In this document: positions 6,329 to 24,962 of the stretch, piece after piece
Layout: each line of letters starts with the position of its first letter
Numbering within the stretch: the stretch's first letter is position 1
NCBI GenBank assembly: GCA_003252135.1
Contig: QKDK01000272.1
Span: forward strand, 1 to 32,658
Direction: 5' to 3'
DNA length: 32,658 bases
Origin: Clostridia bacterium
GTDB taxonomy: Bacteria; Bacillota; Clostridia; Lachnospirales; Lachnospiraceae
Program-made: the position numbers and the translations under genes
The notes under the pieces: generated by a model
What the model was told of the DNA's origin: nothing
The model's input: the letters and a program-made list of their open reading frames with translations, nothing else
Databases searched by the model: none

Positions 6329-6354
6329 ACTTCTTGTGCTATCCTCTCTTCAAA

Positions 6355-6759: not shown

Positions 6760-6761
6760 TT

Positions 6762-8108
6762 TCATCCTCCCGCAAAATTAGTTATTTCTTCTCGCTTACG
6801 CTTCATCTCCTGATGATGTCTCATATACATAAATACCGCTGCAATATTCAGAAAGCACTGCGATATTGTCGTGGATATCCAGATTCCATTCATCCCGTAT
6901 AGTCTCGGAAGGATGAGCAGCAGCAGCGGAGTCAGCAGCAGCGGATCAAAATATATCATGAACAGAGAATATTTATTCTTGCCAACGGCATAAAAATAGG
7001 AGTTCGAGATCCTGACGAGTCCGGTAAATACAAGCTGTGTCGCACTGATCATCAGGGGCCAGTAGGATTGCTCCTTCACCTCTTTGGAAACTCCAAATAT
7101 TGCCGGGTAGTACTTTGCTGTTGCAACGGTAAATAAAAATAAAAATACACTGACTGCAACTGCTGTAAAGATCCCTTTATTTCTGATGCGCATCATGGAA
7201 TCATAGTCTCTGGCACCCGCAGATACACTGGCCAGCGGCTGCACACCTTCCGCTACACCGATCAAGATCATTCGATATGCACCGATTGTCGCAGAAATCA
7301 GTGAATAGATTGCAATTCCGACATCGCCGCCATATTTGATGCACTGCACATTATTATACAATATCAGAAGTGATGGTGTCAAAGAAATTCCAAAAGGAGA
7401 TATCCCGATCCGTAACATCTTACTGATCAGTGCCGGTTTGACCTTAAACTGTGAGAAATGAATAGGACGGACTTTATTCCGCAGAAGAGTTACCACACAG
7501 CTGATAACAGTTATCATCTGTGACGAAAGTGTTGCTATCGCTGCACCTTTGATTCCCATTTTCAGTACATAAATGAGAAGATAATCAAGAATAACATTAC
7601 ATATCATACCCACGACCATGATTGACATTGCAGAAACGACTTTGTTGTCATTTCTGAGTATCGGTGTAAGACCAGCCGCAAACATCTGGATAGAGCATCC
7701 ATAAATCATGATCCTGCCATACTCCATGGCATAATTGTACAGTTCCCCCTCTGCACCCATCATACGAAGCAGACTGGGCAGTAAAAAGGAAGAAATAAGT
7801 GTGATAAAACCACTTAAAACAATAAGCACGATCAGAATGTTGGCTCTTGCTATATCAGATTCCTCAGGCTTCCCCTCACCCTGCCTGGTGGACATGATTA
7901 CTGCTCCGCCGCATCCGATTCCGGTCCCTATAGCTACAATCACTGCGAGGATCGGCCATACAACATAAACTGCTGCAAGACCTTTATCCCCGACAAGATT
8001 GCTGATAAAGAGGCTGTCCACAAGGGAGTACAATGTTGTTATCAGCATGGTGACCATGGATGTAAACACGTAGGTAAAAAACTTCTTTTCTGATAACTTT
8101 TGCTCCAT
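6762..8108 (-). CDS. MATE family efflux transporter
   Basis: An integral membrane exporter of 448 residues with about 12 hydrophobic segments, the normal size and topology of the multidrug and toxin extrusion family driven by sodium or protons. Family signs are an N-terminal TMLITTLYSLVDSLFISNLVG, followed by GIGCGGAVIMSTRQGEG, and the matching second-half repeat with SVSAGARDYDSMMRIR. The ribosome binding site AAAGGGG is 8 bases before the ATG. It lies 38 bases after oppA with no terminator between, so it appears to belong to the opp-sda operon. The substrate is unknown; export of a peptide-derived amino acid or toxic by-product is a guess from context. Confidence 0.92.
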   Translation of the reverse strand: MEQKLSEKKFFTYVFTSMVTMLITTLYSLVDSLFISNLVGDKGLAAVYVVWPILAVIVAIGTGIGCGGAVIMSTRQGEGKPEESDIARANILIVLIVLSGFITLISSFLLPSLLRMMGAEGELYNYAMEYGRIMIYGCSIQMFAAGLTPILRNDNKVVSAMSIMVVGMICNVILDYLLIYVLKMGIKGAAIATLSSQMITVISCVVTLLRNKVRPIHFSQFKVKPALISKMLRIGISPFGISLTPSLLILYNNVQCIKYGGDVGIAIYSLISATIGAYRMILIGVAEGVQPLASVSAGARDYDSMMRIRNKGIFTAVAVSVFLFLFTVATAKYYPAIFGVSKEVKEQSYWPLMISATQLVFTGLVRISNSYFYAVGKNKYSLFMIYFDPLLLTPLLLLILPRLYGMNGIWISTTISQCFLNIAAVFMYMRHHQEMKRKREEITNFAGG

Positions 8109-8146
8109 TGCAGATGCCCCTTTGAAATTACTTTTATTGGTTGATT

Positions 8147-9820
8147 CTACTGTGTGATATCTGCAAATCTAAAGTCAAGATATCCCATTACATAATTTGT
8201 CTGGCCGGTAATGCTTGGGTTGACAAGGTAAAGCGATTTTGTTGTGAACAAAGGACAGATTACAGTATCTTCTGAAACAAGAATCTTTTCTGCTTCCTGT
8301 AACAGTGCCTGACGTGCTGCAGTATCCATTTCACTTGCTGATTCTGTCATGATCTGGTTGTATTCATCGTTTAACCAGCTAATATCGTTCTGTGAGTTAC
8401 CATCGCGGTACATATCGAGCCATGTAGCAGGGTCATTGTAGTCACCTGTCCACTGATGACGGGCAAGCTGAAGCTCTCCGGCTCTTCTTGCATCTACATA
8501 CACTTCATATTCCATAGCATTTAATTCTACTGTAACACCAAGCTGCTGCCATTGTGCCTGAAGTACCTGCGCAACGTCTGCTTCATAGCTCATGGATGGA
8601 TAGGTATAGGTTATGGTAGGAAGTCCTTCCCCGTTAGGGTAACCTGCGTCTGCAAGCAGCTGTTTCGCAGCTTCAATGTTCTCATCAAGAAGAGCTCCCT
8701 GTAAATCAGACCATTTTGTTCCGTCGACCTTGCTCTTATAGTTCGCAGCAACGAAGGTCGTAGAAGGTGTGTAGCAGCTTCCGATTACATCACAGATGCC
8801 CTGTCTGCTTACCGCAAGGGCAAATGCCTGACGGACTCTAACATCATCAAACGGAGCCATATTGATATTGAATAAAATATAGTTCGTTACTAATACATCC
8901 GCTGACTGAAGATCTGCCTGATCTGCGTACTGGTCTTCCACATAGTAAGGAGCACCGCTCAAGATGTCGATTTCACCAGTCTTGTATGCTGAAGTCTTCG
9001 CCTGGTCATCATCCATGAATTTAAAGGTAAGTGTATCAAATTTAACTGCATCACGATCAGAGTAGTATTCATTCGGTGCGAAGGTTATGTATTCACCTGA
9101 TTTGTAATCGCTCATGTGATATGGTCCGTTACCAAGGTTCTTTGTTACATCTGTATCCCAGCCTTCATCTGCATTCGTTGCATATGTAACATTAGATGGC
9201 ATGTAAACTGGCAGACGTACATAATCAAGGAAGTTTGCACAAGGAGAAGCAAGTGTGAAAATAATTGTCAGATCATCCGGGCATTCAACACCGATATCAT
9301 CAATGGAAGCTGTTCCGTTAAATGCATCTGAAGCACCTTTGATTAAAAACAGAGCGTCAACATACCATGCACCTTTTGCAGGGTCAAGGGCACGCGTGAT
9401 TGTGTTTAAGAAATCCGCAGATGTTACTTTACTTCCGTCTGACCAGTAACCATCTTCTTTTAAGTGGAATGTCCATACGGAACCATCTTCGTTCGCTTCC
9501 CAGCTTGTTGCCGCTGCAGGAATTACAGTTCCTTCTTCATCATAATCGATCAGACCTTCCAGACAGTAGCTCTGTAAGTCAAAGTAAACATATGCTGTTG
9601 CTCCAGCCGGATCATACTCACCATTTTCTGGCTGTTCTGAGCAAATTATGTTTTTAGCATCACCACTGGTTGCTGTTTCGGTGCTGCCAGATGCTGCTGC
9701 ATCTGTTACATTGGAAGACCCTGTGTTTGAACTGTTTCCGGCATTGTCGCCGCATGCTACAAGTCCAAATACCATTGCGCTGCATAAAAGCGCTGCGATT
9801 ACTTTCTTAAAATTTTTCAT
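8147..9820 (-). CDS. oppA: Peptide ABC transporter substrate-binding lipoprotein (OppA-like)
   Basis: Extracellular peptide-binding protein of the SBP family 5, 557 residues. The N-terminus is a lipoprotein signal peptide (KKVIAALLCSAMVFGLVAC) with lipobox LVAC and C23 as the lipidated residue. It is followed by a Ser/Thr/Ala/Gly-rich linker of about 35 residues that tethers the binding domain to the membrane. The family core is visible at AATSWEANEDGSVWTFHLKE and at VRQAFALAVSRQGI. The ribosome binding site is GGAGG, 5 bases upstream. It is the fifth opp gene, 110 bases after oppF; no terminator is seen in that gap. The exact peptide specificity cannot be read. Confidence 0.93.
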   Translation of the reverse strand: MKNFKKVIAALLCSAMVFGLVACGDNAGNSSNTGSSNVTDAAASGSTETATSGDAKNIICSEQPENGEYDPAGATAYVYFDLQSYCLEGLIDYDEEGTVIPAAATSWEANEDGSVWTFHLKEDGYWSDGSKVTSADFLNTITRALDPAKGAWYVDALFLIKGASDAFNGTASIDDIGVECPDDLTIIFTLASPCANFLDYVRLPVYMPSNVTYATNADEGWDTDVTKNLGNGPYHMSDYKSGEYITFAPNEYYSDRDAVKFDTLTFKFMDDDQAKTSAYKTGEIDILSGAPYYVEDQYADQADLQSADVLVTNYILFNINMAPFDDVRVRQAFALAVSRQGICDVIGSCYTPSTTFVAANYKSKVDGTKWSDLQGALLDENIEAAKQLLADAGYPNGEGLPTITYTYPSMSYEADVAQVLQAQWQQLGVTVELNAMEYEVYVDARRAGELQLARHQWTGDYNDPATWLDMYRDGNSQNDISWLNDEYNQIMTESASEMDTAARQALLQEAEKILVSEDTVICPLFTTKSLYLVNPSITGQTNYVMGYLDFRFADITQ

Positions 9821-9930
9821 ACATTCCTCCGTTCTGTCTCCTTAAGACACTCTGATTTTTTACCTTGCTGCATTTTGAAAACGGCCCATTCCTACACATC
9901 TTTTCTTATGGATTTGCCTTATTTCACTTT

Positions 9931-10893
9931 TTAGTCTGCTGCATATAAGAAACATGCAACCTTTCTGCCTTCAAAATCGACCATCTCTGGTTTTTTTCTG
10001 CGGCATTCTTCTGTAGCGTGTGCACATCGTCCGGCAAAAGCACATCCTGGCGGCGGGTTCAACGGGCTTGGAACCTCTCCCTCCAGTATGATTCTTGATT
10101 TTGCCCGGGACTGATTTGGATCTGGAATTGGTGCTGCAGAGATTAAAGCTCTTGTATATGGATGCAGCGGATTCTTATAAATATCATCCGAGCTGCCATA
10201 TTCAACTAGATTGCCCAGGTACATAACGCCGATCTTATGACTGATGTGATGAACCATGCCAAGATCGTGAGCTATAAATAAATAGCTGATACCTGTTTCC
10301 TTCTGGATTCTTTCCAGTAAATTGATGATCTGCGCCTGAATGGATACATCAAGCGCCGAGATCGGTTCATCGCAGACAATGAAATCCGGCTGCAGGGTAA
10401 GTGTTCTTGCAATTCCGATTCTCTGTCTCTGTCCGCCGGAAAACTCGTGCGGGTATCTTCTGATATGATCAGGTTTCAGTCCTACCGTTTCGATCAGATC
10501 CTGAACCTTTGCTTTTCTTTCTTCCGGTGTGCCTATTTTATGGATGATCATTGGTTCTTCAATAATATCACCGATTGTAAATCTCGGATTCAATGATGCA
10601 TAAGGATCCTGAAAGATCATCTGCATCTTTTTTCTATAAGGAAGCATCTGCTTTCTTGACAGGCCGGTGATATCCCTGCCGTTAAATATGATCTGTCCGC
10701 TTGTCGGTTCGTATATCTTTAATATCGTTCTTCCCATGGTGCTTTTTCCGCAGCCGGATTCACCAACGATGCCCAGTGTCTCTCCTTTGTTCAGTGTCAG
10801 ACTGACATTGTTCACCGCATGTACTTTTTTTCCGCCCTTGACAGGAAAGACCTTCGATAAATTATTCAACTCCAGTATGGGTTTTTCATTCAT
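9931..10893 (-). CDS. oppF: Oligopeptide ABC transporter ATP-binding protein (OppF-like)
   Basis: Second ATPase of the peptide importer, 320 residues. Walker A is GESGCGKST, the signature is FSGGQRQR, and Walker B is FIVCDEPISALD. The C-terminal extension has the Cys-rich CAFAGRCAHATEEC seen in Opp/Dpp ATPases, a region that in related DppD binds an iron-sulfur cluster. Its start overlaps the end of oppD by 8 bases. Together with OppD it forms the cytoplasmic motor under the OppB/OppC channel. Confidence 0.95.
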   Translation of the reverse strand: MNEKPILELNNLSKVFPVKGGKKVHAVNNVSLTLNKGETLGIVGESGCGKSTMGRTILKIYEPTSGQIIFNGRDITGLSRKQMLPYRKKMQMIFQDPYASLNPRFTIGDIIEEPMIIHKIGTPEERKAKVQDLIETVGLKPDHIRRYPHEFSGGQRQRIGIARTLTLQPDFIVCDEPISALDVSIQAQIINLLERIQKETGISYLFIAHDLGMVHHISHKIGVMYLGNLVEYGSSDDIYKNPLHPYTRALISAAPIPDPNQSRAKSRIILEGEVPSPLNPPPGCAFAGRCAHATEECRRKKPEMVDFEGRKVACFLYAAD

Positions 10894-11923
10894 TGGCTTT
10901 CTCTCCTTCCAGTACCTCCTGGTAACGATCTCTGCAGTAGAGCCAGCAATTACATTTATGTGTCTTTGAAAACTCAGTTTTCAAAGGATTGTAATCCTGG
11001 CATATCGCCATAGCTTCAGAGCATCGTGCCGTAAAAGGACATCCTTTTTTTAGTTTCAAAAGATCGGGCGGGGTTCCCGGAATAGGCTTTAATGGTTCTT
11101 TTTTATCACCTTCACTGTTTGAGATACTATTGAGAAGTCCTCTGGTGTACGGATGTTTCGGTTCATAAAAAATCTCATCTGTTGTTCCTTCTTCCATAAT
11201 ATTGCCGCCGTACATGATACTGATTCTGTCACACATGGATGCAACAACACCAAGATCATGGGTGATCATTATGACGCCGGTCTCTGTTTTTTTCGTCAGA
11301 TTCTTGATCAGTTCCAGTATCTGCGCCTGTACGGTAACATCCAGTGCTGTTGTAGGTTCATCAGCAATGATCAGTTTCGGGTTACAGGCCAGTGCGATAG
11401 CTATGATGATACGCTGTCTCATACCGCCTGAAAATTCATAAGGATATTGTTTGAGCCTGCTTTCGGGGGAAGGAATACCCACCAGGTTCATCAGCTCAAC
11501 TGCTCTTTTCTCTGCCTCTTTTTTTGTAATTTTTTCGTGACAGAGAATTCCTTCGGTCATTTGTCTGCCTATGGTAATGATCGGGTTCAGAAAGGACATC
11601 GGATCCTGAAAAATCATTCCAATATCATTTCCCCTGATTGCCCGCATTCTTGTTTCATATGCTCTTTTTTTCTTTCTAGAGTCAAGTCCAGAGGGTGTGA
11701 TATCTTCCCCGTCAAAGAGGATGGTTCCTTCTACAACACTGCCATTTTCAGCAAGCAGTCCCATCAGGGAAAGCATACCAACGCTCTTTCCAGACCCGGA
11801 TTCTCCTACGATTCCCAGAATTTCGCCTTTTTCCAGCGTATAATCGATTCCGCGGATTGCTTTGACAATTCCCTGGCTTGTTTTAAATTCTGTTGTCAGT
11901 CCTTTTATCTCTAATAGACTCAT
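10886..11923 (-). CDS. oppD: Oligopeptide ABC transporter ATP-binding protein (OppD-like)
   Basis: First ATPase of the importer, 345 residues. Walker A is GESGSGKSV (Val replaces the more usual Thr at the end, common in OppD), the signature is FSGGMRQR, and Walker B is LIIADEPTTALD. The C-terminal CPFTARCSEAMAIC is the Cys-rich extension of the peptide transporter subfamily. The ribosome binding site AGGAG precedes the ATG. Eleven bases separate it from oppC and it overlaps oppF by 8 bases, so the operon is tightly coupled. Confidence 0.95.
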   Translation of the reverse strand: MSLLEIKGLTTEFKTSQGIVKAIRGIDYTLEKGEILGIVGESGSGKSVGMLSLMGLLAENGSVVEGTILFDGEDITPSGLDSRKKKRAYETRMRAIRGNDIGMIFQDPMSFLNPIITIGRQMTEGILCHEKITKKEAEKRAVELMNLVGIPSPESRLKQYPYEFSGGMRQRIIIAIALACNPKLIIADEPTTALDVTVQAQILELIKNLTKKTETGVIMITHDLGVVASMCDRISIMYGGNIMEEGTTDEIFYEPKHPYTRGLLNSISNSEGDKKEPLKPIPGTPPDLLKLKKGCPFTARCSEAMAICQDYNPLKTEFSKTHKCNCWLYCRDRYQEVLEGEKANE

Positions 11924-11934
11924 CGCATCATCTC

Positions 11935-12852
11935 CTAACGTTTTGCTTTTGGATCCAGTGCTGTTCCTAATCCCTCACCGACAAAGTTGAAGGCAAAGAT
12001 TGTTATACAGATAGCAAGCATAGGGTAAGCAGTCTGCATCGGGTAGATCTCGATCAATGCACGGGCATCCTGCGCCAGTGTTCCCCAGCTGGCAAGCGGT
12101 GCCGAAATACCTACACCAAGGAAACTTAACCAGGCTTCCGTAAAGATAGCCTGCGGTACCATCAGTGTTACGGTAACGATAATCTGTCCCACTGTATTAA
12201 CGAGCAGATGCTTGAATAGAATTCGTTTATCACTGGCACCGATGACAAAGGCTGCCATGGCAAATTCCTGTTCTTTCAGGCTCCTGACCTCCTGCCTTAC
12301 GATTCTTGCCATATCAATCCAGCTTGAAATTGAAATACCGATCATTACACTGGTAACGCTGGCACCAAAGATCAGCATGATCAAAACAATATAAAGCATT
12401 GCGGGTACAGAATAGATAATATCTACAATACGCATCATCAGCATGTCTGTCTTCCCGCCGATATATCCGGAAATACCGCCGTAAACAGTTCCGATAACAA
12501 GATTGATGATAGCTGCTACAAGCCCGACCATTAAGCTGATTCGTGCTCCATACAGAATTCTTACAAAGATATCCCGTCCGAATTTATCTGTTCCAAACCA
12601 GTGTGCAGCGCTTGGTGCCGCATTTTTTAAGGCTGTATTTTGTGTTTCATAGGAATAAGGACTGATCATTGGTCCAAATATTGCAAGCAGAATAACAATC
12701 AGTAAGATGACAGCTCCTGCCAGTGCTCTTTTATTATGTCTGAAATTCTTCATTGCTGCCTGCAGGAAGGTCTGGCTCTCAACAGCGATGAACTCATCAT
12801 TTTTTTCTTCTGCTTCCAGCTTGCGAAACAGTATCGCTTCTCTGTCGTCCAT
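11935..12852 (-). CDS. oppC: Oligopeptide ABC transporter permease (OppC-like)
   Basis: Inner-membrane permease of 305 residues. The N-terminal cytoplasmic tail is followed by a first membrane helix (ALAGAVILLIVILLAIFGPMISP) and the characteristic HWFGTDKFGRDIFVRILYGARISL sequence of DppC/OppC proteins. The EAA loop reads EAWLSFLGVGISAPLASWG. The length and roughly six membrane helices fit the family. The ribosome binding site GAGGAGG is near the ATG, 12 bases after oppB. Confidence 0.95.
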   Translation of the reverse strand: MDDREAILFRKLEAEEKNDEFIAVESQTFLQAAMKNFRHNKRALAGAVILLIVILLAIFGPMISPYSYETQNTALKNAAPSAAHWFGTDKFGRDIFVRILYGARISLMVGLVAAIINLVIGTVYGGISGYIGGKTDMLMMRIVDIIYSVPAMLYIVLIMLIFGASVTSVMIGISISSWIDMARIVRQEVRSLKEQEFAMAAFVIGASDKRILFKHLLVNTVGQIIVTVTLMVPQAIFTEAWLSFLGVGISAPLASWGTLAQDARALIEIYPMQTAYPMLAICITIFAFNFVGEGLGTALDPKAKR

Positions 12853-12864
12853 AACATTCCTCCT

Positions 12865-13791
12865 CTACAGTGTATTTTTAATCCGGGGATCTACAAAGGA
12901 ACAGATCAGGTCAGAAATCATATTACATATTATGATAATTGCGCCAATGAAAATGGTGATTCCCATAACCAGTGTGTAGTCGTGGTTACTTATGGCGTTA
13001 ACAAATTCTTTTCCGATTCCGGGAATTGTATACAGGTTTTCGATAACAACACTGCCGGTAAGAAGAAATGCAACCATCGGTCCCATATAGGTAATGACTG
13101 GAAGAAGTGCATTTTTCAGAATATGGCGAAAAGTAATGGCACTGCTGCTTAGCCCTTTTGCTTTTGCCATTGTTACATAATCCTGACGCATGACATCTTC
13201 ATAGCTAGTCTGGGTAAGTCTGGCCACAGCTGATATCGGATAGAGTCCCTGTGCAATTGCAGGCAGCACGTAATTCATCGGAGTGTCAAGACCAAGGACC
13301 GGAAACCAGCGAAGCTGTACACCAAAGATAATGAGCAGCAGCAGCGCCACGATAAAGTTTGGCACGCTTACACCAAGTGTCAGACCAGAAAGCCAGAGTC
13401 CTCTTATAAAATTACTTTTTGTCTTTGCCATGGCAATACCGGCACTGACGCCTACAACGAGGGTCAATATAAAAGTAACAATACCGAGACGAAGTGTTGG
13501 CTGGATTCTTGAAAGTATTATATCTGTAACCTCAGTACCGACTTTTTTGTAGGAAGTTCCGAAATCTCCATGCAGCAGGTTCTTGCAGTATATAAAGAAC
13601 TGTTCGATTACAGGTTTATTCAGCCCGTATTTTTCTTCCATCTTTTCGAGTACTTCACCAGAAACATTTTTCGATTGCAGTGGACTACCCGGCATCAATT
13701 TGGTCATTGCAAATGTTATTGCTACTAGAACAAAAAGCGTTAAAACTCCGATACCGATTCGTTTTATCAGATATTTAACCAAAGCCCGCAC
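12865..13791 (-). CDS. oppB: Oligopeptide ABC transporter permease (OppB-like)
   Basis: First permease of the importer and first gene of the operon, about 308 residues. After a short basic start (KYLIKRIGIGV) come the first membrane helix and the family motif FAMTKLMPGSPL; the conserved C-terminal part includes VVIENLYTIPGIGKEFVNAI. The ORF track ATG at 13824 would place the start inside the hairpin at 13809-13848. The GTG at 13791 with AGGA 6 bases upstream, or a TTG at 13782 with AAGGTG 6 bases upstream, are both more likely; homologues usually begin close to KYLIKR. The upstream leader is about 250 bases long and structured. Confidence 0.92.
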   Translation of the reverse strand: MRALVKYLIKRIGIGVLTLFVLVAITFAMTKLMPGSPLQSKNVSGEVLEKMEEKYGLNKPVIEQFFIYCKNLLHGDFGTSYKKVGTEVTDIILSRIQPTLRLGIVTFILTLVVGVSAGIAMAKTKSNFIRGLWLSGLTLGVSVPNFIVALLLLIIFGVQLRWFPVLGLDTPMNYVLPAIAQGLYPISAVARLTQTSYEDVMRQDYVTMAKAKGLSSSAITFRHILKNALLPVITYMGPMVAFLLTGSVVIENLYTIPGIGKEFVNAISNHDYTLVMGITIFIGAIIIICNMISDLICSFVDPRIKNTL

Positions 13792-13808
13792 CTTCTTTCC
13801 TGTTATTT

Positions 13809-13848
13809 CAAAATAAAATGACAACGAGGTCTAATGACTCCGTTGTCA
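13809..13848 (-). terminator. Second hairpin with T-rich tail in the opp leader
   Basis: On the minus strand TGACAACG and CGTTGTCA form a perfect 8-base-pair stem with a 14-base loop, followed directly by TTTTATTTT. It looks like an intrinsic terminator and lies just upstream of the oppB ribosome binding site, so it may attenuate the operon. The T tract is interrupted by one A, so strength is uncertain. Confidence 0.5.
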
Positions 13849-15737: not shown

Positions 15738-16817
15738 ATGAACGTAAATCTATTATTGAATGAAGCAATTAGGAAGAAACCTGCCAGCAACCGTGCCAGC
15801 AGAAAAAGAAGCAGTTCCACTCCTGATGATATTATCCGTATGAATTATAATGAGAATCAGTATGGTATGTCTCCAAAGGCATATCAGGCATTTGTTGAAG
15901 CAACTGCAAAATCCAGTTATTATCCTGACTTCTTTGCAATTGACTTAAAGACAGCACTGGCAAAGGAATTTAATCTGGAATGGGCTAATATAATCACTGT
16001 TGCAGGTTCGAGCGCTCTGATCGATATGGTAGGAGCGATCTTCATCAACCCAGGTGACGAGGTCCTCTTTTGTGAACCGACCTTCGATGCATTTCGTGAT
16101 ATGGCAAATGACTACGGTGCAACCTGTGTGACCGCTCCGCTGGATGAAAATATGTGCTTTGATCTTGATGCCCTGTACAGCAAGATTACTGATAAAACTA
16201 AAATCATTGTTATCTGCAACCCGAACAATCCGACAGGCGGACATATTGCTTCTGATAAAGTAGAAGCTTTTATTCGCAAGGTTCCTGAATCTATTCTTGT
16301 TGTTGTAGATGAGGCTTATATCGAATATGTTGATCGTGAAGAAAACAGCAGTATGGTTCGGATGATCCAGTCTGGTTACGATAAGCCTATGATCGTTCTC
16401 CGTACCTTCTCGAAGATCCACGGAATGGCAGGTCTGCGTGTTGGTTACGGTATTGCCAGTGCTGAAATTGCCGACGAGTTCGGCAAGTCCTCACATGCAT
16501 GGAATGTCAGCAATGTTGGGCAGGCTACTGCAGTTGCCGCTTTAAATGATAAAGAATATGTAAAAGATGTACGCGCAAAAAATAAAGAATGCAGAGAATA
16601 TATCACTGCTGAGCTTTCAAAGCTTGGATGCAAGGTCTATCCTTCCCAGACCAACTTTATCTTCTTCGACTCAAAACTCGCTCCTGCGGATATGACTGCA
16701 AAATTAAAGGAAAAGAAAATTCTAATCGGTACCTTTGCATCCAGTCGTGTAAGTATTGGCACGATGGATCAGAGTAAAAAATTCATCGCTGCAGTTGCTG
16801 AGATTTTAAGTGAATAA
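15738..16817 (+). CDS. Class I/II PLP aminotransferase, HisC-like
   Basis: Pyridoxal-phosphate aminotransferase of the histidinol-phosphate aminotransferase group, 359 residues. The lysine that binds PLP is K226 in TFSKIHGMAGLRVGYG. Other family motifs are NPNNPTG (161-167), DEAYIEY (191-197) and the early MNYNENQYG substrate loop. The start follows GAGAGGAG. It is not in a histidine operon: the neighbours are a 2-hydroxyacid dehydrogenase and the ior/paaK operon. HisC-like enzymes often accept aromatic amino acids, so a role in making phenylpyruvate, hydroxyphenylpyruvate or indolepyruvate is plausible but inferred. The leader is long and the promoter carries repeated boxes, suggesting regulation. 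Confidence 0.9.
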   Translation: MNVNLLLNEAIRKKPASNRASRKRSSSTPDDIIRMNYNENQYGMSPKAYQAFVEATAKSSYYPDFFAIDLKTALAKEFNLEWANIITVAGSSALIDMVGAIFINPGDEVLFCEPTFDAFRDMANDYGATCVTAPLDENMCFDLDALYSKITDKTKIIVICNPNNPTGGHIASDKVEAFIRKVPESILVVVDEAYIEYVDREENSSMVRMIQSGYDKPMIVLRTFSKIHGMAGLRVGYGIASAEIADEFGKSSHAWNVSNVGQATAVAALNDKEYVKDVRAKNKECREYITAELSKLGCKVYPSQTNFIFFDSKLAPADMTAKLKEKKILIGTFASSRVSIGTMDQSKKFIAAVAEILSE

Positions 16818-16960: not shown

Positions 16961-16990
16961 AAAAAAGAAGAGGTGCAGACCTCTTCTTTT
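16961..16990. terminator. Bidirectional terminator between aminotransferase and ior/paaK operon
   Basis: AAAAGAAGAGGT, loop GCAG, ACCTCTTCTTTT is a perfect stem flanked by A and T runs on both sides. It ends the plus-strand aminotransferase transcript and the minus-strand paaK-ior-ACT transcript. Confidence 0.9.
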
Positions 16991-16991
16991 C

Positions 16992-17031
16992 CTTTGTATT
17001 CCTTTGTATTCCTTTGCATCTCTTTGTATAT
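16992..17031 (-). repeat. Four 10-base tandem repeats after the ACT gene
   Basis: On the minus (coding) strand the units read ATATACAAAG, AGATGCAAAG, GAATACAAAG, GAATACAAAG. They fill the space between the last ACT gene's stop and the terminator. The core RTRCAAAG resembles repeat motifs in two other spacers of the same operon (18878-18915 and 19955-20030). Confidence 0.75.
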
Positions 17032-17048
17032 CCATTAATCAACTGCTG

Positions 17049-17480
17049 TTATGCCTGAAAGCTGTATACTTCTTCTGCTTTATACAGGATAAAACCTGCC
17101 TTTTGTAAGTTGTCTGCAACAGGCTGTGTATCACTTACTTTTAATATTACAGAGGAGTTTACTCCAGTTGACAGAACATACATATATTCAATGTTGCTGC
17201 CGGCCTCAGATACCACCTTTAGAATCTGCTGCAGCTGGCCGCTTTTATTGGGAACTCTTACGGCGATTACATCTGTAAATTTTGCAGAAATGCCTGCTTC
17301 CTTAAGAACCTCGCGTCCTCTTTCGGGGTCTGAAACAATGACACGTAAAATTCCGTATTCAGAAGTATCAGCAAGACTCAGGGTTACTATATTAATATCA
17401 TGTTTTGCGAGAACATCTGTAACTTCTAAAAGCCTGCCTTCGCGGTTTTCTATAAAGACTGATAATTGCTTTATTAACAT
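17049..17480 (-). CDS. Double ACT-domain protein (first copy)
   Basis: A 143-residue protein made of two ACT domains, roughly residues 1-65 (MLIKQLSVFIENREGRLLEVTDVL) and 68-140 (TDVIAVRVPNKSGQLQQILKVV). ACT domains bind amino acids and regulate enzymes. Stand-alone pairs like this commonly sit beside paaK/ior genes. The start at 17480 has AAAGGAGG at 7 bases; the ORF track's longer start at 17504 overlaps the ribosome binding site and is rejected. It follows paaK by 20 bases and is the last gene of the operon. It is a clear paralogue of the ACT protein at 18923-19345 but has diverged. Sensing phenylalanine, tyrosine or tryptophan is an inference. Confidence 0.88.
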   Translation of the reverse strand: MLIKQLSVFIENREGRLLEVTDVLAKHDINIVTLSLADTSEYGILRVIVSDPERGREVLKEAGISAKFTDVIAVRVPNKSGQLQQILKVVSEAGSNIEYMYVLSTGVNSSVILKVSDTQPVADNLQKAGFILYKAEEVYSFQA

Positions 17481-17500
17481 CTGACTTCCTCCTTTACTTT

Positions 17501-18799
17501 TCAATACAGTTTTCTGTTATCAATGACACGTTTTGCTTTACCTTCACTTCTGGCAAGTGTCTTTGGTTCGACCAGTTTTACGTGTGCGACAACGCCAAGT
17601 GCCTGCTCCAGCGTTCTTTCAATTCTCTTTGTCATATTCTCCAGCTCACGAATCTCATCAAAGTTGAAGGAATCATCTGCTTCGACCTGTACTTCAAGTG
17701 TATCAAGATTATTGATACGGTCGACAACCAGCAGATAGTTTGGTGTTACCCCACCCATTTCAAGCAGCGCTGCCTCCACCTGAGAAGGAAACACATTAAC
17801 TCCTCTGATGATCAGCATATCATCGGACCGTCCCTGGAACCTTGAAAGTCTTGCCATGGTCCGACCGCACGGACATTTGTCATAAGAAATGCTTGTAAGG
17901 TCCTTTGTTCTATAGCGGAACAAAGGCAGGGCTTCTTTTGTTACAGGAGTGAATACCAGCTCTCCCACTGTTCCAGGCGCAACCGGCTGCAGGGTCTTTG
18001 GATCTATGATTTCAGGAATAAAATGATCTTCATAAACATGCAGGCCGGTATGATACTCACAGTCTCCGGCAACACCCGGTCCGAGAATCTCGCTCAGACC
18101 ATAAATGTCATAAGCAGTAATACCTAATCTTCTTTCAATTTCATTCCTCATGCCATCTGTCCAGGGTTCGGCTCCGCAGATCGCACTTTTCAGCTTGATC
18201 TTCCCTACCTTTCCTTCTTCTTCCAGCGCTTCTGTCAGATACATCAGATAAGACGGAGTACAGCAAATTGTTGTGACGCCAAAGTCTTCCATCAGGGTGA
18301 GCTGTTTTTTTGTATTTCCGGTAGAAAGCGGTACGACCATGGCACCAACATTTTCAGCACCATAATGCACACCCAGTCCGCCGGTGAACAGTCCGTAGCC
18401 ATACGATATCTGAACCTTGTCATTTCGTCCTACTCCGCCCATAGTAAGTACTCGTGCCACACACTCCGACCACATCTCAATATCTCTTCTTGTATATCCC
18501 ACAACCGTAGCTTTTCCCGTTGTTCCGGATGACGCATGAACACGTACGATTTCTGATTCTGGAACTGCAAACAGACCAAATGGATAGTTGTCACGTAAAT
18601 CATCTTTTGTTGTATACGGCAGCTTCGATAAATCCTCAATTCCCTGAATATCGCCTGGTTCCAGCCCCATCTGCTGCATCTTTTTACGATAAAATTCCAC
18701 ATTATGATAAACGTTGTTTACCATTTTAACAAGCCTTGCGCTTTGCAGCGTCTGAATCTGATCGCGGCTCATACACTCTTTTGTCTCATTCCAGATCAT
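17501..18799 (-). CDS. paaK: Phenylacetate-CoA ligase family protein (PaaK, first copy)
   Basis: AMP-forming aryl-CoA ligase of 432 residues, the usual size. It joins phenylacetate or a related aryl acid to CoA, or in reverse could release the acid from its CoA ester. The ATP-binding loop is SSGTTGKA (about 90-97), the adenylate motif is YGLSEILGPG, and RSDDMLIIRGVNVFPSQVE with a later EGKAKRV marks the C-terminal lid domain. A PCGR Cys motif (YDKCPCGRTMARL) is also typical. It differs from the second PaaK at the substrate-pocket motif (SEILGPGVAG versus SELNGPGLSG). It is preceded by a 123-base spacer with a 19-base tandem repeat and followed after 20 bases by an ACT gene. Confidence 0.93.
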   Translation of the reverse strand: MIWNETKECMSRDQIQTLQSARLVKMVNNVYHNVEFYRKKMQQMGLEPGDIQGIEDLSKLPYTTKDDLRDNYPFGLFAVPESEIVRVHASSGTTGKATVVGYTRRDIEMWSECVARVLTMGGVGRNDKVQISYGYGLFTGGLGVHYGAENVGAMVVPLSTGNTKKQLTLMEDFGVTTICCTPSYLMYLTEALEEEGKVGKIKLKSAICGAEPWTDGMRNEIERRLGITAYDIYGLSEILGPGVAGDCEYHTGLHVYEDHFIPEIIDPKTLQPVAPGTVGELVFTPVTKEALPLFRYRTKDLTSISYDKCPCGRTMARLSRFQGRSDDMLIIRGVNVFPSQVEAALLEMGGVTPNYLLVVDRINNLDTLEVQVEADDSFNFDEIRELENMTKRIERTLEQALGVVAHVKLVEPKTLARSEGKAKRVIDNRKLY

Positions 18800-18877
18800 C
18801 GTTTAAGAACCATCCCTTTCTTATATATAGTCATTTTATTTCGCAATACACTTTCCTATTCCTTTTTGTTATTCAAA

Positions 18878-18915
18878 TTACTTCTGTATCACCTGTTTAC
18901 TTCTGTATCACCTGT
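18878..18915 (-). repeat. Perfect 19-base tandem duplication in the ACT-paaK spacer
   Basis: On the coding (minus) strand ACAGGTGATACAGAAGTAA occurs twice in a row, perfectly. The core ATACAGAAG recurs in the iorA-iorB spacer. The rest of the spacer (18800-18922) shows no terminator and only weak promoter-like sequence. Confidence 0.85.
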
Positions 18916-18922
18916 TTATTTC

Positions 18923-19345
18923 TCATTCCTGCGTAAGCTTTTCCGTGACCATGACCCCATTTTCCATCAGAACCTTTTCCGCCTCTTCCATTCTGTCAAG
19001 ATTCATCAGCATCAGCGGTTCGCTCTGCCCGCGCAGAACAAATGAGTAAATGTAGTTGATTTCCAGTCTGGCATCAGCAAGAATCCACATGACACGGTCC
19101 AGCTCGCCTGGTTTATCCACAAGCTCAATTGCAACAACATCTGTCAGTTTAACAATAAATCCATTTTCTGTCAGAACGCGCTTTGCTTCACCTGTCTTAT
19201 CCACCATCAGTCGCAGAATTCCAAACTCTGGTGAGTCAAAAGAAGCAATTGCACGGATACTGATATTATTTTCTCGAAGAACACGTGTTACTTTTGCAAG
19301 ACTTCCAACTTCATTCTCCACAAATACAGAGAGCTGTTTTACCAT
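18923..19345 (-). CDS. Double ACT-domain protein (second copy)
   Basis: A 140-residue protein with two ACT domains (MVKQLSVFVENEVGSLAKVTRVL and TDVVAIELVDKPGELDRVMWIL). It is colinear with the ACT protein at 17049-17480 and shares short motifs such as KQLSVF.EN and YGILR/FGILR, so the two arose by duplication. AAGGAGG lies 8 bases upstream of the ATG. It follows iorB by 13 bases, which places it in the oxidoreductase operon as a likely amino-acid sensor. It has no DNA-binding domain, so it probably acts by contact with an enzyme or other protein. Confidence 0.88.
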   Translation of the reverse strand: MVKQLSVFVENEVGSLAKVTRVLRENNISIRAIASFDSPEFGILRLMVDKTGEAKRVLTENGFIVKLTDVVAIELVDKPGELDRVMWILADARLEINYIYSFVLRGQSEPLMLMNLDRMEEAEKVLMENGVMVTEKLTQE

Positions 19346-19358
19346 ATCATTCTCCTCC

Positions 19359-19946
19359 TTACGCGTTGATCTTCTGTAATTCGAATCCTGTTACAAATGC
19401 CTTTTTGTTTATCTCGACTGTTTTTGGCGGGACAAGCTTCTCAATCACTTCCAGCCAGTCTTCTTTTGAAAAGTCCATATGCTGTGCCGCAACACCGAGT
19501 ACTACAATATTAAAGGTTCGGGCATTTCCAAGTTCCTTCGCAATGCTCATTGCATCAACTGCAATTACTTTATGCCTGCTCTGCAGCATTTCTATTATAT
19601 TCTCCGGATATACTGCTGCTCCGATGACAACCGGCATCGGGTCAATGCGTTGATCGTTCAGTATCAGGACCCCATCCTTTTTCAGATAATGCGCGTATCG
19701 ATAAGCCTCTAGCCGTTCAAATGCAATCAGGACATCTGCCTGCCCTTCTTCAACAATCGGTTCAGCGACCTTTTCACCGTACCGGACAAACGTTACCACG
19801 CTGCCGCCTCGCTGTGCCATCCCATGTACCTCAGAAAGTTTAACATCAAAACCTGCATGAATGGTAATACCCCCGAGGATTCTGCTAGTCAGCAGTGTTC
19901 CCTGACCGCCTACTCCGACGATCATTATATTTTTCGTTGTTTTCAT
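19359..19946 (-). CDS. iorB: Indolepyruvate:ferredoxin oxidoreductase, beta subunit
   Basis: Gamma-domain subunit of the arylpyruvate oxidoreductase, 195 residues. The N-terminal nucleotide/CoA-binding motif is IMIVGVGGQGTLLTSRILG, followed by SEVHGMAQRGGSVVTFVRYG, both hallmarks of IorB and related 2-oxoacid:ferredoxin oxidoreductase gamma domains. Together with IorA it converts aryl-2-oxoacid, CoA and oxidised ferredoxin to arylacyl-CoA, CO2 and reduced ferredoxin. The Shine-Dalgarno is a modest GAGGG close to the ATG. The spacer to iorA upstream is a 97-base purine-rich repeat tract. Confidence 0.95.
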   Translation of the reverse strand: MKTTKNIMIVGVGGQGTLLTSRILGGITIHAGFDVKLSEVHGMAQRGGSVVTFVRYGEKVAEPIVEEGQADVLIAFERLEAYRYAHYLKKDGVLILNDQRIDPMPVVIGAAVYPENIIEMLQSRHKVIAVDAMSIAKELGNARTFNIVVLGVAAQHMDFSKEDWLEVIEKLVPPKTVEINKKAFVTGFELQKINA

Positions 19947-19954
19947 CTTACCCT

Positions 19955-20030
19955 CACTTCTGCACTTCGCTTCTGTATTTCATTTCTGTATTTTACTTTT
20001 GCACTTCATTTTTTCATTTCATTTTGCTTA
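19955..20030 (-). repeat. Degenerate purine-rich repeats in the iorA-iorB spacer
   Basis: On the coding strand the spacer contains GTGCAAAAG, ATACAGAAA, ATACAGAAG and GTGCAGAAG at intervals of about 12-15 bases, within a tract that is almost all purine (plus ATGAAATGAAAAAATGAAG). The core RTRCARARR links it to the repeats at 18878 and 16992. No hairpin is likely in such a tract, so the mRNA here should be single-stranded. Confidence 0.6.
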
Positions 20031-20042
20031 TTCATATACTCA

Positions 20043-21782
20043 TTATTTATCAGACTTTTGAATCGCTCCAAATTTACAGATCTGCGCGCAAAGTCCGCAT
20101 CCGTTGCACATAGTATCATTGATCACCACACTCTTATCTGATCTTCTTGTGATAGCCGGACAGCCCGGTTTCATGCACATACCGCATTTTGTACAGATAT
20201 CTGTATTGATTTTATATTGAGATGTAATGGCCTTCTTATCCAGCAATACACAGGGCGCTTTTACAATTACCACTGAAAGCTCATCTTTTGCCACTTCCTC
20301 TTTGATGACCTGTTCCAGTTTTTCTGTGTTAAAAGCACCGACTGAAACGACATTTTTTATACCGATCGATTTACAGAGCATCTCCAGGTCGATTGCAGGG
20401 ACTGTTTCTCCCATCAGTGTTTTTCCCGTAGCTGCATGATCCTGATGGCCTGTCATTCCTGTTGTTGAATTATCAAGAATCAATATAGTTCCGGTTCCCT
20501 GATTATATACCGCATTGATCAGTGAATTGATGCCGGTGTGCATAAAGGTCGAATCTCCGATAACAGCAACCCAGTCTTTGATAAATTCTTTTCCTTTTGC
20601 TTTTTCAATACCATGCAGTGAACTGATGCTGGCGCCCATGCAGATCGTGGTATCGATGACGCTGAGCGGAGCCACCGCTCCCAGTGTATAACAGCCGATA
20701 TCGCCTGCAGCATGGATCTTTAACTTACTCAGAACATGGAAGGTACTGCGGTGCGGACAGCCGGGGCAAAGAATCGGCGGGCGCATCGGCGCTGCTGCTG
20801 CTTGTTCGATCTCGAGCTCCTGCCTGAGGATAGCTGTCCTGAGCAGATTTGCGCTGTATTCGCCCTGAATGGTTAATATTTCTTTTCCTATCGCTTTGAT
20901 TCCCCAGGCTCTTACCTGCTCTTCAATGATTGGATCAAGTTCTTCAACAATATATAATGTTTCAACATTTTCGGCAAATTCCATGATCAGGTTTTTAGGA
21001 AGCGGATTTACCAGTCCAAGTTTTAACACAGAAACATCAGGCATTGCTTCCTTTACATACTGATAAGGAATTCCTGCCGTTATAACACCGATTTTTCTGT
21101 CATTATATTCTACTTTATTAACAGCCATTGAGCAGCCGTCAACTGCCATGCGCTTTTCTCTGTCTTCAACATGCAAATGTCTTTTTACTGCATTTCCCGG
21201 CATCATAACATTTTTCGCAATATTTTTCACATAAGGTCTGTCTTCTCTTTCTGTTCTTTCACAAAGCTCGACCATGCCCTGAGAATGAGAAAGCCTTGTC
21301 GTTACACGGACGATGACGGGGGTGTCGTATTGTTCGCTCAGGTCAAAGGCAAACTTGGTAAATTCCTTTGCTTCTTCGCTGTCCGACGGTTCCAGCACAG
21401 GCACCTTTGCAGCTCTTGCAACAGCCCTTGTATCCTGCTCATTCTGCGAACTGTAGAGTCCCGGGTCATCCGCTGCTGCCAGGACCAGTCCTCCGTTTGC
21501 TCCGATATAGGATACCGTATAGAGCGGGTCTGCAGCCACATTGACACCGACATGCTTCATGGATGCCAGTGCTCTAACTCCGCTGATGGATGCACCGATG
21601 GCCACCTCCATTGCAACTTTTTCATTTGGTGACCATTCTGAATAAATCTCTTTATATTTAACAATGTTTTCGCTGATTTCAGTACTTGGTGTTCCCGGAT
21701 ATGCTGCGGAAACCTTAACACCTGCTTCATATGCTCCTCTGGCAATAGCTTCATTGCCAAGCATGATTACTTTATCTGACAC
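20043..21782 (-). CDS. iorA: Indolepyruvate:ferredoxin oxidoreductase, alpha subunit
   Basis: Catalytic thiamine-pyrophosphate subunit, about 579 residues. In order: the 2-oxoacid oxidoreductase alpha-like domain (GNEAIARGAYEAGVKVSAAYPGTPSTEI), the CPGCPHR motif, the TPP-binding segment GDIGCYTLGA with GDSTFMHTG, and a C-terminal ferredoxin-like domain with two Cys clusters (CTKCGMCMKPGCP and CNGCGLCAQIC). This arrangement is specific to IorA. The ORF track begins at a TTG inside the upstream paaK gene. The GTG at 21782, with AAAGGAG 8 bases away, is the better start and leaves a 32-base gap. The enzyme feeds reduced ferredoxin to the anaerobe's energy metabolism. Confidence 0.95.
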   Translation of the reverse strand: MSDKVIMLGNEAIARGAYEAGVKVSAAYPGTPSTEISENIVKYKEIYSEWSPNEKVAMEVAIGASISGVRALASMKHVGVNVAADPLYTVSYIGANGGLVLAAADDPGLYSSQNEQDTRAVARAAKVPVLEPSDSEEAKEFTKFAFDLSEQYDTPVIVRVTTRLSHSQGMVELCERTEREDRPYVKNIAKNVMMPGNAVKRHLHVEDREKRMAVDGCSMAVNKVEYNDRKIGVITAGIPYQYVKEAMPDVSVLKLGLVNPLPKNLIMEFAENVETLYIVEELDPIIEEQVRAWGIKAIGKEILTIQGEYSANLLRTAILRQELEIEQAAAAPMRPPILCPGCPHRSTFHVLSKLKIHAAGDIGCYTLGAVAPLSVIDTTICMGASISSLHGIEKAKGKEFIKDWVAVIGDSTFMHTGINSLINAVYNQGTGTILILDNSTTGMTGHQDHAATGKTLMGETVPAIDLEMLCKSIGIKNVVSVGAFNTEKLEQVIKEEVAKDELSVVIVKAPCVLLDKKAITSQYKINTDICTKCGMCMKPGCPAITRRSDKSVVINDTMCNGCGLCAQICKFGAIQKSDK

Positions 21783-21814
21783 AACCTGTTCTCCTTTCGG
21801 TTTTACGTTACTCT

Positions 21815-23134
21815 TTAACAATTCAGACCAAGTTCCTTACGCAGGTCTGTTACACGCTTTGCTTTTCCTTCAAATCGTTTCAGGGTTCCAGGTGCGACCA
21901 GCTTGATGTCAGCATCCAGACCAAGCACAGATTTCAGATTTCCGCGAACTTTTTTTGCCAGATCATTTAACTGGCCGTAAGATTCAAGCTGCGATTCATC
22001 CACCAGTTCAACCTTTATGGACATTGTATCCAGATGATTGATTCTTTCGACAATAATTTCATAATGCGGTCCAATCTCGGGAATTCGAAGGAGTACCTCC
22101 TCGATCTGCGTCGGAAATACATTGACACCCCTGATGATCAGCATATCATCGCTCCTGCCGGACAGATTCTCCATCCTGCATGTTGTTCTGCCGCATTTGC
22201 ACGGTTCATAGAAAAGCCTTGTGATATCTCTTGTTCTGTACCTGATCATAGGCAGCCCTTTTTTGGTAAGGCAGGTAATGACAAGTTCGCCTTTTTCACC
22301 CGCCGGCAGAACTTCTCCGGTCTCAGGATTGATGACTTCCGGTATAAAATGATCTTCGTGGATATGCATTCCGCAAAGTTCGAGACATTCTCCTGAAAGA
22401 CCTGGACCGTTCAGCTCACTCATACCGTAATTCTGCGTTGCTTTGAAGTCATCGCCCCAAAGCTTGTACATCTCCTGTCTCATGGGTTCTGTCATGCCTT
22501 CTCCGCCAAATAGTCCAATTTTAACTTTCAGATCCTTCTGTGGGTCTAACCCCATTTTCCTTGCAACCTCACCCATATGAAGTGCATAAGATGGCGTTGC
22601 CACCAGAAGCGTTGTCCCAAAATCTTTCATATACATCAGCTGTTTTTCTGTATTCCCGGAAGATGTCGGTGCTACCGCCGCACCCAGATTCTCCAGTCCG
22701 TAATGCAGTCCGAGAGCTCCGGTGAACATCCCGTAACCAAAACAGATCTGTGCAATATCATGGCTTGTCGCACCCCCAAGTGCAGCCACTCTTGTCACAG
22801 TCTCTGTCCAGTTAGCCATATCTTCTTTTGTATAACCGACCACGGTCGGTTTTCCTGTCGTTCCTGAGGAAGCATGAATTCTAACCATGTCATCCACCGG
22901 TACCGCAAACAATCCGTAAGGATAATGATCTCTGAAATCTTTCTTTACAGTAAATGGAAGGTTTTTTAAGTCTGCCAGTGACTTGATATGTTCCGGTCGT
23001 AACCTTGCTTCCTCCATTTTGCTGCGGTAAGGTGCTACTTTTTCATATGCCCATGTAACCTGTTCTTTCAACCTGGCGAGCTGTATTTCCTCCATCTCGG
23101 CACGTGTACAGGTCTCTTCTTTTGCCCAAATCAT
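21815..23134 (-). CDS. paaK: Phenylacetate-CoA ligase family protein (PaaK, second copy)
   Basis: First gene of the ior operon, 439 residues, an AMP-forming aryl-CoA ligase. The motifs are SSGTTGKP (89-96), YGMSELNGPG, CKCGRTTCRM, RSDDMLIIRGVNVFPTQIE and the terminal EGKAKRV. The start chosen is the ATG with GGAGG at 6 bases; the ORF track's start at 23152 overlaps the ribosome binding site. It is co-transcribed with iorA from the very strong promoter at 23212-23239. The close pairing with Ior supports a role in handling arylacetyl-CoA made by the oxidoreductase. Direction in the cell (activating arylacetate or releasing it) cannot be told from sequence. Confidence 0.93.
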   Translation of the reverse strand: MIWAKEETCTRAEMEEIQLARLKEQVTWAYEKVAPYRSKMEEARLRPEHIKSLADLKNLPFTVKKDFRDHYPYGLFAVPVDDMVRIHASSGTTGKPTVVGYTKEDMANWTETVTRVAALGGATSHDIAQICFGYGMFTGALGLHYGLENLGAAVAPTSSGNTEKQLMYMKDFGTTLLVATPSYALHMGEVARKMGLDPQKDLKVKIGLFGGEGMTEPMRQEMYKLWGDDFKATQNYGMSELNGPGLSGECLELCGMHIHEDHFIPEVINPETGEVLPAGEKGELVITCLTKKGLPMIRYRTRDITRLFYEPCKCGRTTCRMENLSGRSDDMLIIRGVNVFPTQIEEVLLRIPEIGPHYEIIVERINHLDTMSIKVELVDESQLESYGQLNDLAKKVRGNLKSVLGLDADIKLVAPGTLKRFEGKAKRVTDLRKELGLNC

Positions 23135-23175
23135 TCGTATCCTCCAATGCATTGCACTGCCTGCTTTTCGCGTTT

Positions 23176-23197
23176 TTGCGTTGAAGCTTTAGCGCAG
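23176..23197. promoter_or_regulatory. Candidate operator dyad in the paaK-ior leader
   Basis: TTGCGTTGAAG directly abuts its imperfect inverse CTTTAGCGCAG (8 of 11 positions match). It lies about +8 to +30 relative to the predicted paaK-ior transcription start. The half-site TTGCRYYRAMG is also found twice in the symporter leader (23363-23392). Confidence 0.5.
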
Positions 23198-23211
23198 TAA
23201 ATTTACTTTAA

Positions 23212-23239
23212 ATTATAGCATTTCCAACTGATATGTCAA
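23212..23239 (-). promoter_or_regulatory. Very strong promoter of the paaK-ior operon
   Basis: Perfect TTGACA and TATAAT hexamers on the minus strand with a 16-base spacer and an extended -10 element (TGCTATAAT). The start of transcription is predicted near 23205. Confidence 0.85.
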
Positions 23240-23362: not shown

Positions 23363-23398
23363 TTGCACCAAAGCGTCGAAACGTTGATGCAACAAAGC
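23363..23398. promoter_or_regulatory. Candidate operator with three half-sites in the symporter leader
   Basis: TTGCACCAAAG (23363-23373) and CGTTGATGCAA (23382-23392) form an inverted repeat with 9 of 11 matches and 8 bases between. A further direct copy, TGCAACAAAGC, starts at 23388. The site begins about +12 from the predicted start, the same place as the dyad in the opposite paaK-ior leader. Confidence 0.5.
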
Positions 23399-23444: not shown

Positions 23445-24962
23445 ATGGTAATTAAAATTCTTATGTTGATCGTGTTTTTTGCAATTATGCTGTCTGTTGG
23501 TCTGTATACAAGAAAAAAAGTAAACAGCGCTAACGATTTCGTGCTCGGAGGACGTACCGTCGGCCCATGGATAACAGCTTTTTCTTACGGTACTTCTTAC
23601 TTTTCTGCTGTTGTTTTCATTGGTTATGCCGGACAATTCGGCTGGAAATTCGGTATATCGGCAACCTGGATCGGTATTTTTAATGCACTAGTCGGAAGCC
23701 TTCTTGCATGGGTCATATTGGGCAGAAGAACCAGAGTCATAACCAATCATCTGTCAGCTTCCACTCTGCCTGAGTATTTTGGCAAACGCTTTAATAACAA
23801 GCCAATCAAGATAGCAGCCTCTATGATAACCTTTATTTTCCTGATTCCTTATACTGCATCGATTTATAATGGTCTTTCGAGACTATTCGCAATGGCTTTT
23901 AATGTTCCCTACACTGCCTGTGTTATCGGAATGGCTGTCTTTACAGGCTTTTATCTTGTTCTCGGCGGATATATGGCTTCCTCTATCAACGATTTTATTC
24001 AGGGTATTATTATGCTGGTGAGTATTGCCTTTATCATTGGCGCTGTACTGGCAGGACAGGGCGGTTTTACAGAAGCCTTATCCTCCCTTGCAAATGTTAC
24101 AGACACAACTAATTCGACACCCGGAATTTTTGCTTCCTTCTTCGGTCCGGATCCACTGACACTTTTAAGCGTAATTGTACTCACTTCACTAGGCACTTTA
24201 GGTCTTCCGCAGATGGTTCATAAATTTTACGTAATTAAAGATGAACGTTCTATAAAAACCGGGACCATTGTTTCGACAGCATTTGCTTTTATCATAGCTG
24301 GCGGCTGCTATTTCCTTGGCGGCTTCGGACGGCTTTTTGATTCAGCTGCTATCTATACTGCCACCGGAACAGTCGCATATGATACGATCATTCCTAGCAT
24401 GCTTTCCTCACTTTCCGATATACTGATCGGTATTACTGTTGTCATGGTTCTTTCTGCCTCCATGTCAACACTGTCTTCTCTTGTACTTACGTCAAGCTCG
24501 ACCCTGACACTTGATTTTATCAAAGGTAACTTCATAAAGAAAATGGACAACAAAAAACAGCTGCTCGTCCTTCGTATAATGATCGTCTTCTTCGTAGCGC
24601 TGTCAGTTGTTGTGGCATTGAAGAAAAATGCATTTATTGCGCAGCTGATGGGATATTCATGGGGCGCACTTGCAGGATCTTTCCTTGGTCCGTTGATCTT
24701 CAGCCTTTACTCTAAAAAAGTCAGTCGTCTTGCTGTGTGGGCAAGTATGGCAAGCGGTGTCGGTATCACAGTTACAAATATGATTTTCGGTTATTTCTCT
24801 TCTCCTATTATTGCAGGTGCTATCGCCATGATCGTAAGCCTGATCATTGTTCCTCTGGTCAGCTTTATTACACCAAAGATGCCAAAGGCAGAGGTTGACT
24901 CAATGTTTGACTGTTTTCTTGAATCAGTCACCGTATCAAAGAAAAAATCACTGGATAATTAG
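23445..24962 (+). CDS. Sodium:solute symporter (SSS family)
   Basis: A membrane carrier of 505 residues with about 13 hydrophobic segments, which fits the SSS family (PutP, PanF and relatives). The N-terminus has the typical DFVLGGRTVGPWITAFSYGTSYFSA sequence of the sodium-binding first helices, and further on come GRRTRVITNHLSASTLPEYFG and GGYMASSINDFIQG. The ribosome binding site is GGGAGAGG. It is divergent from the paaK-ior operon and shares candidate operator half-sites with it, so uptake of an aromatic acid or amino acid is a reasonable guess; the family does not give the substrate away. A strong terminator follows. Confidence 0.93.
   Translation: MVIKILMLIVFFAIMLSVGLYTRKKVNSANDFVLGGRTVGPWITAFSYGTSYFSAVVFIGYAGQFGWKFGISATWIGIFNALVGSLLAWVILGRRTRVITNHLSASTLPEYFGKRFNNKPIKIAASMITFIFLIPYTASIYNGLSRLFAMAFNVPYTACVIGMAVFTGFYLVLGGYMASSINDFIQGIIMLVSIAFIIGAVLAGQGGFTEALSSLANVTDTTNSTPGIFASFFGPDPLTLLSVIVLTSLGTLGLPQMVHKFYVIKDERSIKTGTIVSTAFAFIIAGGCYFLGGFGRLFDSAAIYTATGTVAYDTIIPSMLSSLSDILIGITVVMVLSASMSTLSSLVLTSSSTLTLDFIKGNFIKKMDNKKQLLVLRIMIVFFVALSVVVALKKNAFIAQLMGYSWGALAGSFLGPLIFSLYSKKVSRLAVWASMASGVGITVTNMIFGYFSSPIIAGAIAMIVSLIIVPLVSFITPKMPKAEVDSMFDCFLESVTVSKKKSLDN

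Follow-up and report, generated by a model that had tools for sequence, protein, structure and literature searches.

A candidate arylacetate uptake and salvage operon with two PaaK-type ligases and two double-ACT proteins in a Lachnospiraceae genome

Among the closest described systems is a Bacteroides cluster with an indolepyruvate oxidoreductase (IOR) and an AMP-forming ligase, which was assayed as an arylacetate-CoA ligase and for which a biosynthetic role was suggested (PMC13285125). In Methanococcus maripaludis, aryl acids are converted to aromatic amino acids via indolepyruvate oxidoreductase with electrons from the Ehb hydrogenase, according to work in the form in which it is cited in PMC3462420 and PMC4162585, and in the rumen phenylalanine is made from phenylacetate (PMC7356843). 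The oxidative Stickland trio consists of an OFOR, a phosphate acyltransferase (Pta) and an acyl kinase, as in HpdDEFG/HpdJ/HpdK and the C. difficile IOR cluster, and ior genes of this Pta/kinase type are of the energy-conserving, catabolic type (PMC13285125). The operon described here resembles the Bacteroides cluster in having iorAB beside an AMP-forming arylacetate-CoA ligase, but its ligases number two and belong to different clades, and two double-ACT proteins and a divergently encoded sodium symporter are present as well. A route to aromatic amino acids by reductive carboxylation of arylacetyl-CoA would be common to the operon and the methanogen pathway, and the ACT_8 family is also present in the control genome of Methanosarcina acetivorans; the supply of electrons by Ehb hydrogenase is a difference. 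The oxidoreductase superfamily and the thioester chemistry are common to the operon and the Stickland trio, whereas Pta and kinase are replaced by ligases, ACT proteins and a symporter, and the host genomes of the two types differ in biosynthetic status. The gene families are already known. With its doubled ligase and ACT genes and its symporter, the operon is a variant of a known arrangement; no description of this doubled layout with a dedicated symporter was found in the literature searched.

The window, i.e. the whole analysed stretch of 32,658 nucleotides, carries six genes on the minus strand in the order paaK1-iorA-iorB-ACT1-paaK2-ACT2. All six ORFs were confirmed, at the same positions as in a preliminary description of this DNA and with family matches for each. 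The features of the operon and its surroundings are as follows.

15738..16817, plus strand: HisC-type aminotransferase, convergent, possible arylpyruvate aminotransferase and tentative member of the system (TIGR01141 over cut-off)
16961..16992, minus strand: predicted intrinsic terminator hairpin, 14 bp, common to the operon and the convergent aminotransferase gene (folding; stem kept in L052)
17049..17480, minus strand: ACT2, double-ACT (ACT_8) protein (PF19571; adjoins PaaK2)
17501..18799, minus strand: PaaK2, predicted PaaK-type AMP-forming arylacetate-CoA ligase, downstream-position clade (domain and structure matches, tree, GAEPW motif)
18923..19345, minus strand: ACT1, double-ACT (ACT_8) protein (PF19571)
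19359..19946, minus strand: IorB, beta subunit (NF005325 over cut-off; PF01558)
20043..21785, minus strand: IorA, predicted indolepyruvate (arylpyruvate):ferredoxin oxidoreductase alpha subunit with TPP and two Fe-S clusters (TIGR03336, invariant Cys and TPP motifs)
21815..23134, minus strand: PaaK1, predicted PaaK-type AMP-forming arylacetate-CoA ligase, 439 aa, upstream-position clade (domain and structure matches, SD GGAGG, alignment, tree)
23196..23207, minus strand: AGTAAATTTACT, perfect 12-bp palindrome directly past the -10, candidate operator (conserved in L052; single copy in the genome)
23212..23239, minus strand: perfect sigma-70-type promoter TTGACA-16-TATAAT (motif search; conserved in L052)
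23363..23392, minus strand: near-perfect inverted repeat TTGCATCAA...TTGGTGCAA in the leader of the symporter gene (conserved in L052)
23445..24962, plus strand: divergent sodium:solute symporter (SSS family), predicted importer for the operon (PF00474; recurrent neighbour)

Alignment together with ribosome-binding sites led to corrected starts for PaaK1 (23134), IorA (near 21785, placed there by alignment within an ORF that opens at 21821) and ACT2 (17480). The spacers between iorA and iorB (96 nt) and between ACT1 and paaK2 (123 nt) could contain further elements. IorA scored 703 bits against TIGR03336 (cut-off 650.9), and IorB, encoded beside it, 273.6 bits against NF005325 (cut-off 230). 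The motifs of the TPP domain and eight cysteines of the ferredoxin domain, which make up two 4Fe-4S motifs (C543, C546, C549, C554, C572, C575, C578 and C582), were invariant across 11 relatives, in agreement with the initial assignment of IorB and of an IorA with TPP and two Fe-S clusters. IorAB is accordingly a predicted arylpyruvate-active oxidoreductase by family match. A second iorAB in the same genome (G000:C150:25973-29630, L033) has a distant PaaK, neither ACT_8 nor SSS, and genes for an iron alcohol dehydrogenase and an M18 aminopeptidase as neighbours; 13 loci of this type were seen and may serve another role.

Both ligases contain the PF00501 and PF14535 domains, a P-loop SSGTTG and the C-terminal catalytic Lys region GKAKR, motifs of AMP-forming phenylacetate-CoA ligases that identify both as predicted AMP-forming enzymes. 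Because their scores of 505.8 and 549.4 bits fall under the TIGR02155 equivalog cut-off (646.3 bits), they are termed PaaK-type and not PaaK proper, which leaves the earlier assignment of two PaaK-type aryl-CoA ligases intact. The closest structures include 4r1l, 4r1m, 4rvn and 4rvo, and PaaK2 shares the GAEPW motif with crystallised phenylacetate-CoA ligases. A tree of 90 PaaK proteins split them by operon position, upstream or downstream, with two label changes, compared to 26 in shuffles. GAEPWT was found in the downstream group (65 cases), whereas the upstream group mostly has GGEG-T variants. As this region, which we take to be the lining of the acid pocket in this superfamily, differs between the groups, PaaK1 and PaaK2 are likely to use different acids. 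At some Clostridia loci PaaK1 is replaced by another AMP-forming acyl-CoA synthetase, about 544 aa long.

Comparison of gene order at 192 IorA loci led to ten with exactly this six-gene order (the window, L039, L042, L043, L049, L052, L063, L072, L075 and L089), distributed over several Lachnospirales genera and a Clostridiaceae bin. The preliminary description had held that the genes belong together and had named gene neighbourhoods in relatives as the check, with a lack of conservation as grounds for rejection; the recurrence of the identical order in ten loci shows the opposite. A shorter core of iorAB-paaK2-ACT2, with or without PaaK1, is widespread in Clostridia, where IorA was detected in 171 of 243 sampled genomes and operons of the ligase/ACT type are the commoner kind. 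An amidohydrolase-2 family gene recurs beside iorAB or after ACT2 (L044, L062, L065, L067, L077, L086 and L087) and perhaps frees an acid from a conjugate.

ACT1 and ACT2, described from the start as double-ACT proteins, both matched PF19571 (ACT_8) with 104.8 and 84.8 bits (gathering score 23.5); they are 31% identical to each other, and the closest solved double-ACT structure is 2f06. Genes of this family lie beside iorAB in 87 of 98 loci with PaaK, compared to 0 of 72 without, and the gene following PaaK2 encodes an ACT protein in 72 of 85 cases. Since PaaK1-IorAB-ACT also occurs without PaaK2 (10 loci), ligase and ACT gene travel together, and as ACT_8 occurrence follows PaaK, the six-gene operon reads from its gene content as PaaK1-IorAB-ACT1 plus PaaK2-ACT2. 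The control by amino-acid sensing that was originally suggested is plausible for double-ACT proteins with their putative ligand binding, but it would act on the ligase and not on Ior, because the ACT genes track PaaK.

The symporter gene, overlooked in the preliminary description, is divergent to paaK1, and no second SSS gene was found in this genome (80% complete). SSS proteins are importers, and the family includes the phenylacetate permeases known from other bacteria. Fourteen related genomes have between zero and three SSS genes each, and in six of them an SSS gene adjoins the operon; within five genes of the locus, SSS was detected at 35 of 98 PaaK-type loci compared to 0 of 11 Pta/kinase-type loci. 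The symporter of the window belongs to a subclade different from that of the SSS proteins encoded directly upstream of PaaK1 in other genera. On the other side of the operon, the HisC-type aminotransferase is one of three such paralogues, and its position is conserved in L052. In two Syntrophomonadaceae loci (L107 and L118) a HisC-type aminotransferase gene separates PaaK1 from iorAB, and L107 also has SSS upstream; in L086/L087 an aminotransferase is the last operon gene, completing the path to the amino acid. Further away, positions 4777-13824 of the window (minus strand) encode a two-subunit iron-sulfur L-serine dehydratase, a complete ABC transporter for oligopeptides and a MATE transporter, which fits an organism that uses peptides and amino acids.

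The operon promoter, noted as perfect from the first, is the sole perfect match in the window (0 in 100 shuffles) and is kept together with its flanking sequence in L052, from a second species of the genus. The terminator proposed at the same time corresponds to a strong hairpin at about 16992-16961 (-16.5 kcal/mol, z -3.96) with its stem retained in L052, and, judged from the sequence, a single promoter and a single terminator would serve all six genes. As an operator common to the six-gene loci the 12-bp palindrome was discarded, being absent upstream of paaK1 in eight others and confined to the genus. In the paaK1 leader of L039, a -10-like site is immediately followed by a terminator-like hairpin and T run, possibly reflecting attenuation or the terminator of the upstream gene. 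A T-box or other riboswitch ahead of the operon would have fixed the direction of the pathway; neither a T-box nor another known amino-acid riboswitch was detected at Rfam gathering thresholds in the window and 17 related loci.

The two operon types also differ in the company of prephenate dehydratase, which was detected in 51 of 52 genomes with ligase-type loci compared to 2 of 10 with Pta/kinase-type loci (p 1e-7, uncorrected for relatedness, the ten loci being from two families, with three further families seen elsewhere). The comparison of all 243 Clostridia genomes, again uncorrected for relatedness, gave prephenate dehydratase in 128 of the 135 that have both Ior and ACT_8, in 16 of the 36 that have Ior but no ACT_8, and in 36 of the 72 that lack Ior; genomes with Ior lacking ACT_8 were not smaller, as judged by eye, which bears on genome size as a confounder. 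This co-occurrence ties the ligase/ACT-type Ior to amino acid biosynthesis, retained biosynthesis being an indirect marker of direction. Loss of de novo synthesis as the cause of salvage was considered and rejected, as the trend is opposite and the genome itself retains prephenate dehydratase and a chorismate-binding enzyme; since the organism can synthesise its own aromatic amino acids, salvage would not be essential. The genome G008 (L043) is 97% complete and carries all six genes of the operon, yet neither of the two enzymes was found in it; it is possibly an arylacetate-dependent auxotroph and an exception to the trend.

Taken together, the AMP-forming ligases, the ACT genes that follow PaaK, the recurrent symporter and the retained prephenate dehydratase favour an operon for arylacetate uptake and salvage with feedback at the ligases, to which we assign a probability of roughly 0.6. 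The work on Bacteroides, methanogens and the rumen cited at the outset is in partial accord with this. The symporter would take up an arylacetate that other anaerobes have released (phenylacetate, 4-hydroxyphenylacetate or indoleacetate), and the two ligases of different acid preference would convert arylacetate and ATP to arylacetyl-CoA, AMP and PPi. IorAB with reduced ferredoxin would then form arylpyruvate from arylacetyl-CoA and CO2 by reductive carboxylation, and an aminotransferase would lead to phenylalanine, tyrosine or tryptophan. Each ligase would have one double-ACT partner (PaaK1/ACT1 and PaaK2/ACT2), which may sense the aromatic amino acid and turn down the ATP-consuming committed step once enough of the product is present. 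Our analysis shows the genes and motifs, the conservation of the gene order, the promoter, and the statistical association of ligase, ACT, symporter and retained phenylalanine biosynthesis with one another; the direction of flux, the substrates, the compound that is transported and the interaction of ACT and ligase we infer from these.

That the enzymes join arylpyruvate and arylacetate via the arylacetyl-CoA ester is supported by our analysis as it was proposed before; the title of the preliminary description, however, had them oxidise arylpyruvate. On that route transamination would be followed by conversion of arylpyruvate to arylacetyl-CoA and reduced ferredoxin by IorAB, arylacetate would be freed by the ligases running in reverse (ATP from AMP and PPi) or by another enzyme, and the ACT proteins would sense an excess of amino acids. 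Ior enzymes are reversible and accept arylpyruvates, and PPFOR-type enzymes from gut acetogens, when expressed, form phenylacetyl- and indoleacetyl-CoA (PMC13290082). According to mutant work on Bacteroides thetaiotaomicron (Zhu 2023), in the form in which it is cited in PMC13285125, its IOR contributes to the formation of phenylacetate from phenylalanine, and the oxidative direction is thus apparently open to an IOR whose neighbour is an AMP-forming ligase. Nevertheless, phosphate acyltransferase, acyl kinase and ADP-forming synthetase had no family match among the operon and adjacent genes, unlike in catabolic clusters, AMP-forming ligases normally favour synthesis of the CoA ester, and the oxidative route leaves two ligases and a sodium symporter unexplained and sits poorly with the strong tie of ligase-type operons to retained phenylalanine synthesis. 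We therefore consider it rather unlikely. The reverse direction had been allowed for in brackets in the original proposal, and an energy-saving production of arylacetate by reversed PaaK is favoured by no sequence evidence.

Quite improbable in our estimate is a two-way balancing of redox state and amino acids, the switchable route of the preliminary description, in which the ligases merely re-activate leaked arylacetate, the ferredoxin state sets the direction of Ior and ACT is the switch. Double-ACT sensors are indeed present, Ior steps are near equilibrium in related pathways, and the corresponding HPP-to-HPA steps are reversible (PMC13285125). However, ACT genes follow PaaK and never lie beside a ligase-free Ior (0 of 72 loci), and no evidence of a switch was found.

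Should arylacetate salvage be correct, it would change how Ior genes are read, as they are often taken as a sign of phenylacetate and indoleacetate production in the gut, compounds tied to host health. If operons of the ligase/ACT type mainly consume arylacetates, an annotation as producers would be the wrong way round for many genomes, and this would fit the measurable indoleacetate from only 5 of 206 gut isolates (PMC13290082) as compared to IorA in 171 of 243 Clostridia genomes. With some hesitation we suggest that ACT_8 proteins might be dedicated allosteric partners, one per ligase, that gate two classes of aromatic acids separately, and that the ligase/ACT-type Ior across Clostridia might be biosynthetic and mistaken for a source of arylacetate in the gut. 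Arylacetate salvage would also give the uncharacterised ACT_8 family a role that can be tested.
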